DNA of 37,541 nt from Burkholderiales bacterium (GTDB taxonomy: Bacteria > Vulcanimicrobiota > Xenobia > Xenobiales > Xenobiaceae), in the NCBI GenBank assembly GCA_012799975.1, contig JAAZKF010000122.1, positions 1 through 37,541 on the forward strand, read 5' to 3'. Shown here piece after piece: positions 11,130 through 18,086 of the stretch. The first letter of the stretch is position 1; every line of letters starts with the position of its first letter. Under the pieces are notes generated by a model. The model worked only from the letters and a program-made list of their open reading frames with translations, was not told where the DNA came from and searched no databases. Made by a program: the position numbers and the translations under genes.

Positions 11130-11387
11130 TCAGGGGGTCAGCATCACGTCCAGGGTCCCCGCGCGTTCCAAGGCGTAGAGCTCCGAGCATCCGCCCAGGT
11201 GCCGGCCGTCGATGAAGATCTGCGGCAGGCTGCGCCGCCCACCGGTCCTTCGGCTCATGGCCTCGCGGGCCTCTTCATCCCCGTCGATGACGTACTCGGT
11301 GTAGGTCAGTTCCTTGTCGTCCAGCAGGGCCTTGGCTCGAACGCAGTAGGGACAGAAGGTCCAAGTGTATATTTCGATCTGTGGCAT
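11130..11387 (-). CDS. Glutaredoxin
   Basis: An 85-residue thioredoxin-fold protein with the dithiol active site CPYC (12-15), the cis-proline segment SLPQIFIDG and the glutathione-binding GG-C-EL motif ([12 protein letters not shown]). It is GrxC-like in length and motifs and reduces disulfides or glutathione mixed disulfides in the cytoplasm. It is the last gene of the long minus-strand block, starting 12 bp after the YHS-like gene. Its stop lies 7 bp from the convergent STAS gene stop. Confidence 0.93.
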
Positions 11388-11399
11388 CTTCGTCTGGCC

Positions 11400-12161
11400 T
11401 CAGGGGGCCCTCTCGTCCAGTATGATGTCCTCCCCACCGGGGTCCACGGTCGCGGGGTTATTCGACTCGGGGGAAGGATCAGGCAGACTGGAACCAGGAC
11501 CGGGGAGCCAGCCGGGCTCTCCGTCGGGAATGGCCGGTTCGGGGTCTCCGATCTCATCTGGTGGGGGTGCTTCCCCTGGAAGAGGGGATTCAAACGGCTC
11601 GTTGGCCCCAGGAAGGCCAGCTCGGGAGGTTCCTGGCCGATCCGCCTCGATGGGAGGAGGCGGGCCCTCGGGATCCATCCAGGCGTCGCCTGCTTCCGAC
11701 CCGGGATCTCGCGGAGTCTGCGACCCAGATCCGGGTTCTTCCCCCAGATCCGTCAGGTCGACCCGGATGCGGACCCGGGGCTGGACGTAGCGCAGCGGGT
11801 CCTCGCGGAACCGGTCCAGGGTCTCGCGGCTGGCGAAGTAGAACGTCGTTCCGTACAGGTCCACCTGATAGACGGCGTGGGTCGGGTCCAAAGGCTGGCG
11901 TGTGACCGGGTCCATTACCGTTTCTGCTCCGGAGAGCGGGCTGGGAGCAGGAGATGGAAGGGTGGAAATCGGCTCCAGGCGCGGCGGGAAGAAGCGTTCC
12001 GCCAGCCACAATCCTACCACTCCCGACAAGAGCAGAAGGCCTCCCAGGGCCAAGCCGACCAAGACCAGCCGACGCCGCTTCCGCGAGAAGTGGTCCGGTG
12101 GTTCAGGGTCCAGAGGGACGAGGACGGTTTCTTTATCCAAAGCTCCCCCATCATAACACAA
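11400..12161 (-). CDS. Membrane protein with cysteine-free YHS-like domain
   Basis: About 253 residues. A basic stretch (SRKRRR) precedes one transmembrane helix at 32-54 (LVLVGLALGGLLLLSGVVGL). Residues 83-128 read MDPVTRQPLDPTHAVYQVDL, then YGTTFYFASRETLDRFREDP. This matches the YHS pattern (DPV-G-x-VDP, Y-G-xYYFCS--C, F--DP--Y), but both metal-site cysteine positions are replaced (T/R and A/R-E-T). The C-terminal ~120 residues are Pro/Gly/Asp/Glu-rich and probably disordered. No ATG is available near the natural start. I chose TTG at 12159-12161 with AGGGGAG five bases before it; another TTG lies seven codons downstream. The function is unknown; the retained fold without cysteines suggests structural or binding use rather than metal handling. 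Confidence 0.6.
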   Translation of the reverse strand: MCYDGGALDKETVLVPLDPEPPDHFSRKRRRLVLVGLALGGLLLLSGVVGLWLAERFFPPRLEPISTLPSPAPSPLSGAETVMDPVTRQPLDPTHAVYQVDLYGTTFYFASRETLDRFREDPLRYVQPRVRIRVDLTDLGEEPGSGSQTPRDPGSEAGDAWMDPEGPPPPIEADRPGTSRAGLPGANEPFESPLPGEAPPPDEIGDPEPAIPDGEPGWLPGPGSSLPDPSPESNNPATVDPGGEDIILDERAP

Positions 12162-12204: not shown

Positions 12205-13110
12205 CTAGTGGTCCGGGGAGACGACCTCTTCCAGCGGAGCGCCCGCCTCAAAGAGGACGTAGCGGCGAACCCGCAGCGGAGCTCCGGCCTCGGCAGAGCA
12301 CTCCTCGACCAGATCGGCCACGGTGCGCGAGGTCTCACGCACCCAAGGTTGGTCCAGGAGTACGGCGGTGCGGAAGAAACTGTTGCTCATGATCTCGTCC
12401 GCCAGCGCGTCGGGGCTCGAGCCCCGTCCTACATCCCGCTCAAACCGACGCAAGATGGCTTCCCTTTCGAAAGCCAGACGCGGCTCGGGCACATCCTGAC
12501 GGTAGAGATAGGGCGGCCTGTGGAAGCTGACCTGTAAGGTCAACTCGCGGGCCAGACGCCGCGCCGCCAGAGCTTGTGAACCCGAAACCTCCACCAGCGT
12601 CCCCAGGCGGCCGAGCGATCCCGACCCATGCGAATAGGCGGCCACCACACCCGGCAGGCGGGCCTCCATCCGATGGAAGCGGCGAATCCCGAAAGCCTCT
12701 CCGGAACGCAGGATCAAGTCCCCCAAGGCATCCAACACCCGGGTTCCGGGTCCTGGCAAGGGGGCCTCCAGGAGCTCTTCCAAGGAATTCACCGGAGAAC
12801 GCGCGATCTGTCGAGCCAGGGCCAGCACGAACTGGCGAAAGCGCTCTCCCCGCACGACCCGTCGGGTTTCAAAGGAAATCTCCACCAAACTGCCGGCGGA
12901 TCCGTCCTCCAAGGCGTGAACCGCCACCACCCCGTTCGAGCCCATGATCCGAGGTTGGCGAGAAGCCGTGGTCAGGGCCTGCAGCCTCAAGAGCGAGGCC
13001 GCCTTGTGCAAATCTCCAGCACTGGCCTCCAAGGCGCGACGGCAGTCAACCACCGAAGCTCCGGTGAGCCGGCGCAGTTCCTTGATCAGGTCGGGAGGAA
13101 TTCGGGACAT
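12205..13110 (-). CDS. Divergent EF-Ts-like protein lacking the TDFV motif
   Basis: 301 residues, collinear with elongation factor Ts. Residues 7-42 form the UBA-like N-domain (LIKELRRLTGASVVDCRRAL, then GDLHKAASLLR), closely matching EF-Ts. The core follows with GSNGVVAVHA and GSLVEISFETRRVVRGERFR. In canonical EF-Ts this point reads N-QTDFVA, where the Asp-Phe pair disrupts the Mg2+/nucleotide site of EF-Tu; here it is ETRRVV (81-86), so both key residues are Arg. The C-terminal half keeps the EF-Ts order (AAYSHGSGSLGRLGTLVEVS, LALQVSFH-like and QPWVRETSRTVADLV). There is no rpsB neighbour, which normally precedes tsf. It is probably a paralogue with altered or lost exchange activity; alternatively it is the genome's only, very divergent EF-Ts. 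Confidence 0.75.
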   Translation of the reverse strand: MSRIPPDLIKELRRLTGASVVDCRRALEASAGDLHKAASLLRLQALTTASRQPRIMGSNGVVAVHALEDGSAGSLVEISFETRRVVRGERFRQFVLALARQIARSPVNSLEELLEAPLPGPGTRVLDALGDLILRSGEAFGIRRFHRMEARLPGVVAAYSHGSGSLGRLGTLVEVSGSQALAARRLARELTLQVSFHRPPYLYRQDVPEPRLAFEREAILRRFERDVGRGSSPDALADEIMSNSFFRTAVLLDQPWVRETSRTVADLVEECSAEAGAPLRVRRYVLFEAGAPLEEVVSPDH

Positions 13111-13131: not shown

Positions 13132-14007
13132 CTAATCTCCCAGGCTGCGGGCCAAGGCCTCCAGGGACTCTTCCTCGGCTCGCGCCGAATCCTTCTGGAG
13201 CGTGCTGCCGAAGCGCTTGACCCGGGCGCTGGAATCCGGTCCGGGATCGCTGAGCATCAACTCGACCGCCTCAGCCAGGCGCACCAGGCTCTCTCCCTCC
13301 TGATGCACAGCCTTAACGGCTTTCGCCAGGGCCGGATCCCCCTTGAGTCGAGCGACGCGCCCCTGCAATTCCTGCGCCCGGGCCGACAGCCCCGGGGGAC
13401 GGGGGATTCGGCCCGCACCCAACTGGGCCAGGACTTTTTGAATCTGACGGCCCAGGGAAACCTGCTCCAACTGCAAGGGGAGGAGGCTCCGCTGCCAGCG
13501 ATAATAGGCCGCCAGCCGGGCCGACGGATTCATGGTCAGGATGCGATGGGTGGCAGCCTGACGACCCCGGAGCCAGTTCTCCAGACTGCCTGCCGCCAGG
13601 TCCGCCTGGCGCTGGTTGAAAGCCATCAGGTCGGCCCGGGAGGCCCGCCCCTTGGCCAGCAGGGCCACAAGCTGAGCGACCATCTCCACACGTGAGCGGG
13701 CTGCCCGGCGGGCGGGAGCGGCCACCGAAGCTTCCGCCGTAAGGGCCCGCTGGTGGATCTCCTCTTCCAGGTTGCGACAGCGTGACTCGCTGCGACGGGC
13801 TGAAACCAGCGCCTCGTCTCCGGAGATACGCCCGGCCGCCCAATCCTCCAAAGCCTGGGCCGCGACCTGCATCTCCCGCTCCTGACAGACCAGCAGGCGG
13901 GACAGGGCCAGGTCATCCCGAGCCAGGCGCACAGCCGGACTCGGAGCCGCCTGGGTTGCCCAAGGGATCAGCAGGAGCAAAAGCAGGGTCAGCCACCGCA
14001 TCCACAT
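13132..14007 (-). CDS. Secreted helical protein of unknown function
   Basis: A 291-residue protein with a signal peptide (MWMRWLTLLLLLLIPWATQA, then APS). The mature protein is Arg/Ala/Leu/Glu-rich and almost wholly alpha-helical by pattern, with long amphipathic stretches such as LEEEIHQRALTAEASVAAPA and RVEMVAQLVALLAKG. It contains two cysteines in the mature part (VCQER and SRCRNL) that could pair. I recognise no domain. It starts 2 bp after the cvpA-like stop and ends 21 bp before the EF-Ts-like gene, so it is embedded in that transcript. A periplasmic coiled-coil or scaffold role is possible, but no function is assigned. MRW two codons downstream is an alternative start. Confidence 0.6.
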   Translation of the reverse strand: MWMRWLTLLLLLLIPWATQAAPSPAVRLARDDLALSRLLVCQEREMQVAAQALEDWAAGRISGDEALVSARRSESRCRNLEEEIHQRALTAEASVAAPARRAARSRVEMVAQLVALLAKGRASRADLMAFNQRQADLAAGSLENWLRGRQAATHRILTMNPSARLAAYYRWQRSLLPLQLEQVSLGRQIQKVLAQLGAGRIPRPPGLSARAQELQGRVARLKGDPALAKAVKAVHQEGESLVRLAEAVELMLSDPGPDSSARVKRFGSTLQKDSARAEEESLEALARSLGD

Positions 14008-14009
14008 AT

Positions 14010-14546
14010 CTAAAAGCGCCTTTCCAGCTCAGGGATCAGCCATACCGCAGTGTCCTTTGGAATCAAGGCCCGCCCCAGGACCACGAAGGTGGGTTGAAGT
14101 CCCTGCACGGCCTGGGCCACCGGAGCCGTGTGCAAGGCCTTCCGTGTCGAGGGGTCCAGCAAGGGCAGATGGTGCAAGGCCAGCAGGAAGAGCCAGGCCA
14201 TGAACAGGCCCTTCAAAGCCCCCAGGATGGCACCCAGGCCGAACTTGACGGAGCGGGGAGCCGAGGAGTCATGGACGTGCATCTGGTCCAGGTGCATACC
14301 CAGGCTCAGGACGAGAAGAGCGATCAGCAGAAAGATCACCAGGAAGGCGATCATCTTGCAGTTCGGCCCCGGGGCTCCGCTCACACGCTGAAGGGCTGTT
14401 CCCAGCGGCACGAAGAAGCGCAGGGCAAAGCCCAGGCCCAGGCCCAGGAACACCAAGTCGAAGAGTTCCCGGACCAGACCCCTTTGATAGCCGCCGAACC
14501 CGAAGAAGAAAATCAGCAGCAGCAGGAAGATGTCCACCCAGGTCAT
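14010..14546 (-). CDS. CvpA-family membrane protein
   Basis: A 178-residue inner-membrane protein. It opens with MTWVDIFLLLLIFFFGFGGY followed by QRGLVRELFDLVFLGLGLGF, the standard CvpA start. In all there are four hydrophobic segments (about 5-22, 28-48, 66-84 and 103-127). CvpA proteins are linked to colicin V production in E. coli and, more generally, to envelope stress tolerance; the molecular role is unsettled. GGAGG lies seven bases before the ATG. It is 45 bp downstream of pheT in the same direction. CvpA beside pheST is a known conserved neighbourhood (as with zapA and mutS2) in several phyla. Confidence 0.85.
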   Translation of the reverse strand: MTWVDIFLLLLIFFFGFGGYQRGLVRELFDLVFLGLGLGFALRFFVPLGTALQRVSGAPGPNCKMIAFLVIFLLIALLVLSLGMHLDQMHVHDSSAPRSVKFGLGAILGALKGLFMAWLFLLALHHLPLLDPSTRKALHTAPVAQAVQGLQPTFVVLGRALIPKDTAVWLIPELERRF

Positions 14547-14591: not shown

Positions 14592-16946
14592 TCAATCCCG
14601 CAGGCGAGCCGAGAATTCCCGCTCGGTCATTTTCAGTATTCTTCGCAAGACGCGCTGGATCTCATCCTCGGTAAGCGTGCGGTCGGGAGCCTGGAGCAAC
14701 ACCCGGAAGGCCAGACTCTTGTGCCCCTCGGGAACCTGGGCTCCGTGGTAGACGTCGAAGCAGACCAGCGCCCGAACCAGGTCCCCCCCGGCCTGGGCCA
14801 TCCGCCCGGCCAGGGTCCCCGCAGGGACCTCTTCGGCGACCAGCAGGGCCAGGTCCCGCTCCACTTCAGGGAACCGCGAGATCGGCCGATACCGCGCGGG
14901 CGAGCGCAGGCCGGAAAGGAGGTCCAGGTCCAACTCGGCCAGGGCCACCGACGTCTCCAGGTCCAATTCGCCGGCCAGGTGGGGATGGATCTCGCCCGCC
15001 CAGCCCAGTATCTGTTCGCCCACCCGGATCCGGGCAGCCCGCCCCGGGTGTAACCAAGCCTGAGGGGCCGACTCGAAAACGAAATCCAACCCGGCCATCA
15101 AAGCCAGTTGTTCGAGGGCCCCCTTCAGGTCCAGGAAACCCATCCCCGGGCGGCACAGAGCCAGGCCCAGGCGCAGGGGTTCCAGGACCTCCTGTCCCTG
15201 GGGGTGGAAGACCCGGCTGATCTCGAAGAAGCACAGGTCGCGATTGCGCACCCGCAGATTCCGCCGCACCACCTCGACCAGCGACGGGAAAAGTGCCGGC
15301 CGCAGGACCCGCTGGTCCTCGCTGAGCGGATTCATCACCGTGGCCGGCTGGGCCTCGAGGCGGTAGCGCTCGAGGAGTTCCGGGTGGTGCAGGGAGGGCG
15401 TCAGAAGCTCGCTCCACCCCAGGCGGGCCAGGGAGTCGCGGACCCACTCCTCCAGTTCATCCTCTGCGGGCATGGCGCCCTGAGGCTCGCCATGGGGCAC
15501 CGTCACCGGAAGGTTGTCGTAGCCGTAGTGCCGGGCCACCTCTTCGATCAGGTCGGCCTCCTCCAGCACGTCCTGCCGGTGCGAGGGGACCCGGACCTTC
15601 AAGCCCGGCTCCTCCGGAGTGCAGGAGAACTCCAGGGCCTCCAGCAGGGCGCGGATGCGATCGACGGGGATCTCGATCCCCAGGACCTGGCGAACCCGGG
15701 CGGGACGCAGCATGATCTCGGTAGGAGGCTGGGGCTGCGCCCCCCGATCCACCAGGCCGGGGACGACTCGGCCAGCCAGGCTCCCCAACAGATGGGCGGC
15801 TCGGGCTGAACCCAAGACCACCCGCTGGGGATCCATACCCTTCTCGAAACGGCGCGAGGACTCGGTTCTCAAACCCAGGTGCAAGGAGGCACGGCGGACA
15901 GTACCGGAATGGAAACATGCCGATTCCAGGAGGATGCGCCGGGTCTCGGGGCCGATCTCGCTGTCCAGACCTCCCATCACACCGGCTATCGCTACCGGTT
16001 TCTCGGCATCGGCGATGACCAGGGTCCCGGCAGGCAGTTCATGCTCGTCTCCGTCCAGGGTGGTCAGGCGCTCGCCGGGTCGCGAGCGGCGCACCACGAC
16101 CCGCCCCTCGGCCAGGCGGTCCAGGTCGAAGGCGTGCAGGGGCTGGCCGGTTTCCAGCATGACGTAGTTGGTGATGTCCACCACATTGTTGACGGACCGC
16201 ATCCCGGCCGACTCCAGGCGACGCACCATCCAGGAAGGGGAAGGGGCTACCTGGACCTCCTCGATCACCCGGGCGATATAGCGGGGGCAACCTTCCAGGT
16301 CCTGGACCTCTACCAGGTTTCCCGAGGGTTCGGGGGCGTCGTCCTGGGGCAGGACCTCCGGCATTTTCAAGGGGTGCCCCAGCCTGGCGGCCAGTTCGCG
16401 GGCCACACCCAGCAGACCCAACTGATCGGAACGATTGGCGAAAGTCTCCAGGACCAGGACTTCCTCAGCCAGGCGGAGCACCTCCTGGATTTCGCGCCCG
16501 GGCAGAACCCCGGGGTCCAGATCCAGGATACCCTCACGCTGCTCGACGGGCAGGTCCTCCGAGTCGATCCCCAGCTCGGCGGCCGAGCAGAACATGCCCT
16601 CTGAGACCACGCCCCGCAACTTGCCCTTCTTGATCTTCAGGCCACCCGCCAGCAGGGCTCCGTGGGTCGCCACGGCCACCACCTGGTCCACGCGCACGTT
16701 GGGGGCGGCGGTGACGATCTGCAAGGGAGTCCCGGAACCGACATCGACCCGGGTCACCTTCAAGCGGTCTGCGTCCGGGTGGGGTTCAACGCTCAGGATC
16801 CGACCGGTGATAACGTGGGTGATCTCGGCGCCTTCGCGCTCGATCAATTCGACCGGGACACCGACCTGTGCCAGCATCTCGGCGACCTGCTCGGCCGTGC
16901 CCTCGAAATCGACGTAGTCCTGAAGCCAGGTGCAGGGAACGCGCAT
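14592..16946 (-). CDS. pheT: Phenylalanine--tRNA ligase beta subunit
   Basis: A 784-residue subunit of the alpha2-beta2 synthetase, typical in length. The order is: N-terminal opening MRVPCTWLQDYVDFEGTAEQ; the EMAP/OB-type tRNA-binding insertion (about 40-150, VEPHPDADRLKVTRVDVG and SEGMFCSAAELG); the B3/B4 editing domain that clears Tyr-tRNA(Phe) (about 210-380, with NNVVDITNYVMLETGQPLHA); B5 (about 400-470); the inactive catalytic-like core; and a C-terminal ferredoxin-fold anticodon-binding domain (RYRPISRFPEVERDLALLV). AGAGG precedes the ATG by nine bases. It lies 18 bp after pheS, clearly in one operon. Confidence 0.97.
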   Translation of the reverse strand: MRVPCTWLQDYVDFEGTAEQVAEMLAQVGVPVELIEREGAEITHVITGRILSVEPHPDADRLKVTRVDVGSGTPLQIVTAAPNVRVDQVVAVATHGALLAGGLKIKKGKLRGVVSEGMFCSAAELGIDSEDLPVEQREGILDLDPGVLPGREIQEVLRLAEEVLVLETFANRSDQLGLLGVARELAARLGHPLKMPEVLPQDDAPEPSGNLVEVQDLEGCPRYIARVIEEVQVAPSPSWMVRRLESAGMRSVNNVVDITNYVMLETGQPLHAFDLDRLAEGRVVVRRSRPGERLTTLDGDEHELPAGTLVIADAEKPVAIAGVMGGLDSEIGPETRRILLESACFHSGTVRRASLHLGLRTESSRRFEKGMDPQRVVLGSARAAHLLGSLAGRVVPGLVDRGAQPQPPTEIMLRPARVRQVLGIEIPVDRIRALLEALEFSCTPEEPGLKVRVPSHRQDVLEEADLIEEVARHYGYDNLPVTVPHGEPQGAMPAEDELEEWVRDSLARLGWSELLTPSLHHPELLERYRLEAQPATVMNPLSEDQRVLRPALFPSLVEVVRRNLRVRNRDLCFFEISRVFHPQGQEVLEPLRLGLALCRPGMGFLDLKGALEQLALMAGLDFVFESAPQAWLHPGRAARIRVGEQILGWAGEIHPHLAGELDLETSVALAELDLDLLSGLRSPARYRPISRFPEVERDLALLVAEEVPAGTLAGRMAQAGGDLVRALVCFDVYHGAQVPEGHKSLAFRVLLQAPDRTLTEDEIQRVLRRILKMTEREFSARLRD

Positions 16947-16964: not shown

Positions 16965-17993
16965 CTAGAACTGTCGGAGGAAGCGGTCGTCGCCCTCGAA
17001 GAGCAGACGGATGTCGTCGATGCCTCGAGACAGCATCGCGATCCGTTCGACCCCCATCCCGAAGGCGTAGCCGGTGTAGCGCTCGGTGTCGTAGCCGACC
17101 CGAGACAGGACCCGGGGGTGGACCATCCCACAACCCATGATCTCGATCCAGCCGCTATTCTTGCACATCCGGCAGCCGGCTCCCTCGCACAGGAAGCAGT
17201 CCACCATCACCTCGGCTGAAGGCTCGGTGAAGGGAAAGTAGGACGGGTTGAAGCGGGCCCGGCGCCGCTTTCCGAAGAGGGCGCGGGCGAAGACCTCCAA
17301 GGTGCCCTTAAGGTCGGCGAAGGTGACGCCTTCGTCCACCAGCAGGCCTTCGACCTGGTGGAATTCCCAGAAGTGGGTGGCATCCACCGCGTCCCGGCGA
17401 TAGCACTTCCCGGGCACGATGATGCGCACGGGGGGCTCGGAGGCCTCCATGACCCGGACCTGGACCGGAGAGGTGTGGGTCCGCAGCAGCAGGCCCTCCC
17501 GCAGGAAGAAGGAGTCCCACATCTCCCGGCTGGGATGGTCGGCCGGGATGTTCAGGGCTTCGAAGTTGTAGAAATCCGTCTCGACCTCAGGCCCCCGGAT
17601 CACGCCGAAGCCCAGCCCTCGGAAGATATCCTTGATCTGGCGGATCACCTGGTTGATCAGGTGGATGCGTCCCGGCGGGGGCCAGCACCCGGGGAGGGTC
17701 ACGTCGATCCGCTCTTCCAGCATTCGCCCTTCCAGGGCCTCGCCGCGCAGCTCGGCCTGGCGCTCGGCCAGGAGGCCTTCGAGAAACTCCTTGATCTCGT
17801 TGGCCTGCCGGCCTACCTCGGGGCGTTCTTCCGCAGAGAGGGAACCCAGGCCCCTGAGGATGGTGGTCAGGGCTCCACCCTTGCGGCCGAAGACCCGGAT
17901 TTTGGTCTCTTCCAAAACCTCCAGGGTTGAAGCCCCGCGGATCTCGCTGGTCACCTCGTCCTTGAGGCGGGTGAGTTCATCGAAGATGGACAT
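16965..17993 (-). CDS. pheS: Phenylalanine--tRNA ligase alpha subunit
   Basis: A 342-residue class II synthetase subunit. An N-terminal coiled coil (about 1-95) is followed by the catalytic core. Motif 2 is in GKCYRRDAVDATHFWEFHQV and motif 3 in GYAFGMGVERIAMLSRGIDD. Phe-binding and dimerisation elements such as GFGVIRGPEVETDFYNFEAL are present. A CFLC...CRMC pair near residue 270 is a small zinc-knuckle seen in many bacterial PheS proteins. I chose ATG at 17991-17993, preceded by GGAG seven bases upstream; a TTG four codons earlier would place that site inside the coding region. A 93-bp gap separates it from lnt; it may hold a promoter, but no T-box or leader peptide was found. Confidence 0.96.
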   Translation of the reverse strand: MSIFDELTRLKDEVTSEIRGASTLEVLEETKIRVFGRKGGALTTILRGLGSLSAEERPEVGRQANEIKEFLEGLLAERQAELRGEALEGRMLEERIDVTLPGCWPPPGRIHLINQVIRQIKDIFRGLGFGVIRGPEVETDFYNFEALNIPADHPSREMWDSFFLREGLLLRTHTSPVQVRVMEASEPPVRIIVPGKCYRRDAVDATHFWEFHQVEGLLVDEGVTFADLKGTLEVFARALFGKRRRARFNPSYFPFTEPSAEVMVDCFLCEGAGCRMCKNSGWIEIMGCGMVHPRVLSRVGYDTERYTGYAFGMGVERIAMLSRGIDDIRLLFEGDDRFLRQF

Positions 17994-18086
17994 GTTGCAC
18001 TCCAATGGGGTTGCGGTCGGTGAGACCGGCGCCCCGGGATTCTCGCAGCCCCCCCCATCTCCTCTGCGGACCCGCCACAGGACCGG

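Follow-up and report, generated by a model that had tools for sequence, protein, structure and literature searches.

EF-Ts is the helper protein that recharges the translation factor EF-Tu. Its most conserved functional element is the TDFV motif, in which Asp and Phe are the two residues that matter most; in textbooks the release of GDP from EF-Tu rests on this motif, and much of the exchange is owed to contact between the EF-Ts N-domain and helix D. The contacts that are vital in Escherichia coli EF-Ts include K51, D80, F81, I125 and G126 (PMC9529903). Of all EF-Ts residues, Phe81 has the most extensive contact with EF-Tu, and when it intrudes beside His84 the coordination of Mg2+ is destabilised (PMC5770160).

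The closest described relatives of the protein considered here, which is given the working name A and is encoded in a window of 37,541 nucleotides (the whole stretch of DNA that was analysed), are the long-form EF-Ts proteins, such as those of E. coli (1EFU) and Mycobacterium tuberculosis (7VMX). A shares with them a UBA-like N-domain, two core subdomains and a C-terminal module, is 24-30% identical to them over its full length, and has the same predicted fold; it differs in that TDFV is replaced by TRRV, TRRA or SRRA, that K51 and I125 are changed, and that its gene lies away from rpsB and coexists with a canonical tsf. The short EF-Ts proteins, represented by that of Thermus (1AIP) and by the resident tsf of the same genome, are homologous to A in the N-domain and core (33% identity to the resident copy), but the resident copy is short and has TDFV, while A is long and lacks it. 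Like A, gp247 of phage Colossus is an additional EF-Ts-like protein; it is truncated to 98 amino acids, with parts missing, and keeps Phe81 (PMC3556154), whereas A is full length and lacks this residue. A literature search covering sources outside the subscription journals found no papers on EF-Ts paralogues without TDFV.

The gene and its predicted fold

The genome of the window, G000, is a 3.65-Mb bin that is 96% complete with 5% contamination. A matches the tsf profile TIGR00116 over residues 1-291 with 125.3 bits (cut-off 104.05), and PF00889 with 102.6 bits (cut-off 27; E = 2.9e-29). An AlphaFold2 model, for which eight EF-Ts sequences served as input, has a mean pLDDT of 76 and a pTM of 0.70, and its best matches in the PDB are all EF-Ts over the full length, the E. 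coli and M. tuberculosis structures among them, with E down to 7e-22. The profile matches and the predicted fold, with its UBA-like N-domain and core, make A a member of the EF-Ts family. The original prediction had claimed homology to EF-Ts along the entire protein and a UBA-like N-domain, and both parts of the claim are borne out, the first by the TIGR00116 match together with alignments that run through the motif without a gap, and the second by the N-domain itself, where A keeps 11 of 16 highly conserved positions, K9, R12, T15, A17, C22 and L26 among them. A is also basic, with a pI of 9.2-10.2 as against 6.6 for the canonical copy.

Table 1. Features of the window and related genes elsewhere. 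Plain positions refer to the window; those of other genes are given with genome and contig.
Feature	Position	Strand	Basis or remark
pheS	16965..18005	-	NCBI profile match
pheT	14592..16946	-	NCBI profile match
cvpA-like (Colicin_V PF02674)	14010..14546	-	Pfam match
orf291, predicted exported protein, immediately upstream of A	13132..14007	-	conserved across family
CDS of EF-Ts paralogue A, 301 aa	12205..13110	-	ORF and profile matches; orthologues in G001-G003
UBA-like N-terminal domain of A, residues 1-50	12961..13110	-	TGAS-V-DC-RAL motif retained
Codons of T82-R83-R84-V85 in A, replacing TDFV	12856..12867	-	ACC CGA CGG GTC; four genomes; 52 canonical rows
EF-Ts core of A, residues 83-291	12238..12864	-	two subdomains, long-form layout
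Membrane YHS-domain protein, immediately downstream of A	11400..12146	-	PF04945, 8e-9; probable start near 12137-12146
Glutaredoxin (grx)	11130..11387	-	Pfam match
B, EF-Ts core without UBA domain or TDFV, 153 aa	G000:C441:17401-17859 (L004:1324-1782)		
C, EF-Ts-derived, without UBA domain or TDFV, 139 aa	G000:C140 (L125:5316-5732)		
EF-Ts core without UBA domain, CETEET for CETDFV	G010:C374 (L126:2799-3251)		other family, same order

TRRV in place of TDFV

The central claim of the original prediction, that T-R-R-V stands at residues 82-85 where EF-Ts has TDFV, depends on the correctness of both the alignment and the sequence. When A is compared by phmmer with the solved EF-Ts proteins of M. 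tuberculosis, Thermus thermophilus and E. coli, the alignments cross the motif without a gap (LVEISFETRRVVRGERF against LIELNCETDFVAKNAEF), so that no better alignment brings back the Asp-Phe pair, and the escape that had been foreseen, an improved alignment restoring it, is closed. Each of T79, D80, F81 and V82 (E. coli numbering) is present in all 52 of the 52 canonical EF-Ts rows (100%). In the four orthologues of A the corresponding residues are ETRRV, ETRRA, ETRRA and ESRRA.

A frameshift or sequencing error at the motif is ruled out as well. The two arginines are present in four genomes with different synonymous codons (CGA/CGT/CGA/CGG for R83 and CGG/CGG/CGG/CGC for R84), which indicates that they are due neither to chance nor to misassembly. 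The same synonymous changes, an open reading frame in all four genomes, dN/dS well below 1 and a conserved operon make it highly improbable that A is decaying or results from an assembly or frameshift artefact, even though it diverges faster than the canonical copy (86% as against 92% identity when G000 and G002 are compared). Since the defining TDFV motif was checked and is absent, A is not a canonical EF-Ts.

The canonical tsf and the host EF-Tu

A search of the genome for a canonical tsf beside rpsB found one (G000:C75): a short gene, flanked by rpsB and pyrH, which encodes NCETDFVAKNE. The resident canonical EF-Ts is 200-204 amino acids long with ETDFV, a counterpart of the G000 gene occurs in G002, and in the tree the G000 gene clusters with the tsf genes of its own family, which argues that it is native to the organism and is not contamination. 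These observations uphold the proposal that A is a paralogue which has lost TDFV, and they refute the other option offered at the time, that A is a very unusual sole EF-Ts of the organism; with an ETDFV copy at the rpsB-pyrH locus of G000, there is next to no probability left for that option. A is a real, if unusual, EF-Ts paralogue.

The EF-Tu of the host retains the pocket that receives Phe81 (H19, H84, Q114, H118 and L121). The sole second tuf in the G000 bin is a foreign-looking fragment of 130 amino acids at a contig edge (G000:C147:6-389, L069), and since the only second copy is of this kind, there is no support for a dedicated second EF-Tu as the partner of A. A further second tuf gene or fragment, in G003 (C161, L065), likewise appears foreign to the genus, and both are probably bin contamination.

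Distribution, operon and origin

All four genomes of the genus contain A, and none of the other 145 in the phylum does; the profile search of these 149 genomes at E <= 1e-22 yielded no further orthologue, the other matches being three ordinary long-form EF-Ts proteins. The orthologues in the other three members of the genus (G001-G003) are 83-91% identical to A, and the public records that match the A-bearing relatives are bacterium UBP9_UBA1432, UBP9_UBA6111 and a third MAG, JALHDH01. The pairwise dN/dS of the orthologues is 0.09-0.22; A is maintained by selection in the genus.

As the original prediction had it, A has no rpsB neighbour and lies within a pheST-cvpA block beside a membrane YHS protein: the genes around it are pheS, pheT, cvpA, orf291, the YHS gene and the glutaredoxin gene. 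In the window the gaps between genes are 2-60 bases, which suggests co-transcription. The row is retained in G001, G002 and G003 as far as the contigs extend. The product of orf291, which lies downstream of pheT and is conserved family-wide, carries an apparent signal peptide and matches nothing in Pfam or NCBIfam. In a sister genus (G004 and G007; L137 and L138) the order pheT-orf291-YHS-grx-upp is the same and the interval between orf291 and YHS is empty. Most likely, therefore, A joined a pre-existing operon in the ancestor of its genus, the alternative being loss in the sister genus.

In layout A resembles E. coli EF-Ts, being long with two subdomains, while the resident tsf is of the short Thermus type. 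In the EF-Ts phylogeny which the original prediction had proposed, and which was built with further long forms, A is placed on the side of the long forms, apart from the resident tsf, and a clade of the two is rejected (p-AU 0.022, with a long-branch caveat). The placement is indicative only, because A sits on a branch of about 2 changes per site and is unusual in composition; subject to that caveat, layout and tree disfavour a recent duplication of the resident short tsf. Among the matches listed from phage and plasmid collections there is no close donor, all being about 24-30% identical, and the eight that were read at the motif are ordinary EF-Ts with TDF; no donor was found in viral contigs. 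In the tree, the long-form canonical EF-Ts proteins L009-L011 (family f11) branch within short forms from their own phylum, hinting at switches between long and short EF-Ts within the phylum.

EF-Tu contacts and function

Beyond the motif, the residues through which EF-Ts contacts EF-Tu are partly retained and partly altered in A, which keeps 26 of the 46 conserved EF-Ts columns overall; most of those in the N-domain are retained. K9, R12, G16, D21 (as D/E), G126, H147 and most of the TGA..DC..AL loop are retained. The changes are M19/M20 to V/V (V/L in one orthologue), K51 to Q/R, D80 and F81 to R-R, and I125 to S, and the conserved lysines of the coiled coil are altered as well.

The favoured reading, to which a probability of about 0.45 is assigned, is that A is an extra, operon-acquired homologue of long-form EF-Ts which docks on EF-Tu, exchanges little or no GDP, and acts as a regulator or chaperone beside the normal tsf. 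Docking would take place through the N-domain, on the helix D side, and the core. Because A has no Asp-Phe wedge to push in beside His84 of EF-Tu, it would be unable to intrude there, and exchange would be poor or nil. The non-exchanging, EF-Tu-binding role suggested in the original prediction is thus a plausible one. The presence of a canonical tsf elsewhere in the genome, the dN/dS values, the conservation of R-R and of the N-domain, the fold and the normal pocket of the host EF-Tu all support this reading, while the changes at K51, I125 and the coiled-coil lysines, the basic character of A and its great divergence weaken it, since they would also fit a new partner.

A new partner, bound by an arginine-rich face, is the main rival on account of the K51 and I125 changes and the basic surface, and is the less likely of the two. 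The partner could be an RNA, a GTPase other than EF-Tu, or a protein encoded in the operon, for instance PheRS. Several EF-Tu contacts are gone besides Asp-Phe, the motif loop reads TRRVVRGERFR in a protein of pI 9-10, the pheST operon is retained in four of four genomes, and the branch is very long; however, the UBA-like EF-Tu-binding domain retains most of its conserved residues, dependence on EF-Ts is not known for other translational GTPases, and the link to the operon is possibly one of mere position.

It is doubtful, though conceivable from the retained residues, that A still exchanges GDP through the contact of the N-domain with helix D and through its arginines, which might displace Mg2+ electrostatically, perhaps under special conditions. 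Since the helix D contact gives much of the exchange, the loss of Asp-Phe need not abolish activity, and the N-domain is largely kept, R-R is fixed in the genus and the entire fold is kept; against this, D80, F81 and V82 are invariant in the canonical rows, and the genome already has a canonical tsf.

Further EF-Ts derivatives without the motif

A is not alone in its lineage. B reads CRQAETLRRPEF at the position of CETDFVAKNEAF in the canonical copy. It has orthologues in G001 and G002 (L056 and L057) and distant ones, designated D, in G004, G006 and G007 (L050-L052); D thus occurs in sister genera, and the B/D gene adjoins aroC, in divergent orientation, in G000, G004 and G006. In G000, B has an apparent CTG start after a GGAGG site, with no in-frame ATG, GTG or TTG nearby. 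C, which reads CASAEIAISSAF in the motif region, occurs in all four genomes of the genus. G010 holds a canonical tsf besides its CETEET copy.

When profiles are compared, B reaches a probability of 99.6 against canonical EF-Ts, C one of 98.1 and D one of 95.2, and B and C are under purifying selection too. The model of B (pLDDT 91) superimposes on 1TFE, the dimerisation domain of T. thermophilus EF-Ts, with TM 0.83/0.89 and rmsd 1.7; unlike that domain, B, C and D are stand-alone genes, with neither a UBA domain nor TDFV. The D80-F81 pair is missing in every EF-Ts paralogue found (A, B, C, D and the G010 copy). In this lineage, then, several forms without the motif have arisen from EF-Ts, and A, being one of several such altered copies, has probably ceased to be an ordinary recharging factor.

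The likeness of B, C and D to the C-subdomain of the long form, which itself has no UBA domain and no motif, makes it an attractive idea that they pair with the short, presumably dimeric canonical EF-Ts. A broader and rather speculative scheme is that EF-Ts radiated into motif-less subunits, with A as a full-length, non-exchanging EF-Tu binder and with B, C and D pairing with the short EF-Ts, so that exchange would be tuned by subunit swapping.

Implications

A passes the equivalog cut-off of TIGR00116 and would be labelled automatically as an unqualified "elongation factor Ts", probably in error. The occurrence in one lineage of a normal EF-Ts together with several motif-less derivatives is a natural way to separate the binding of EF-Tu from exchange, and these derivatives may bring to light an EF-Tu regulator or chaperone.
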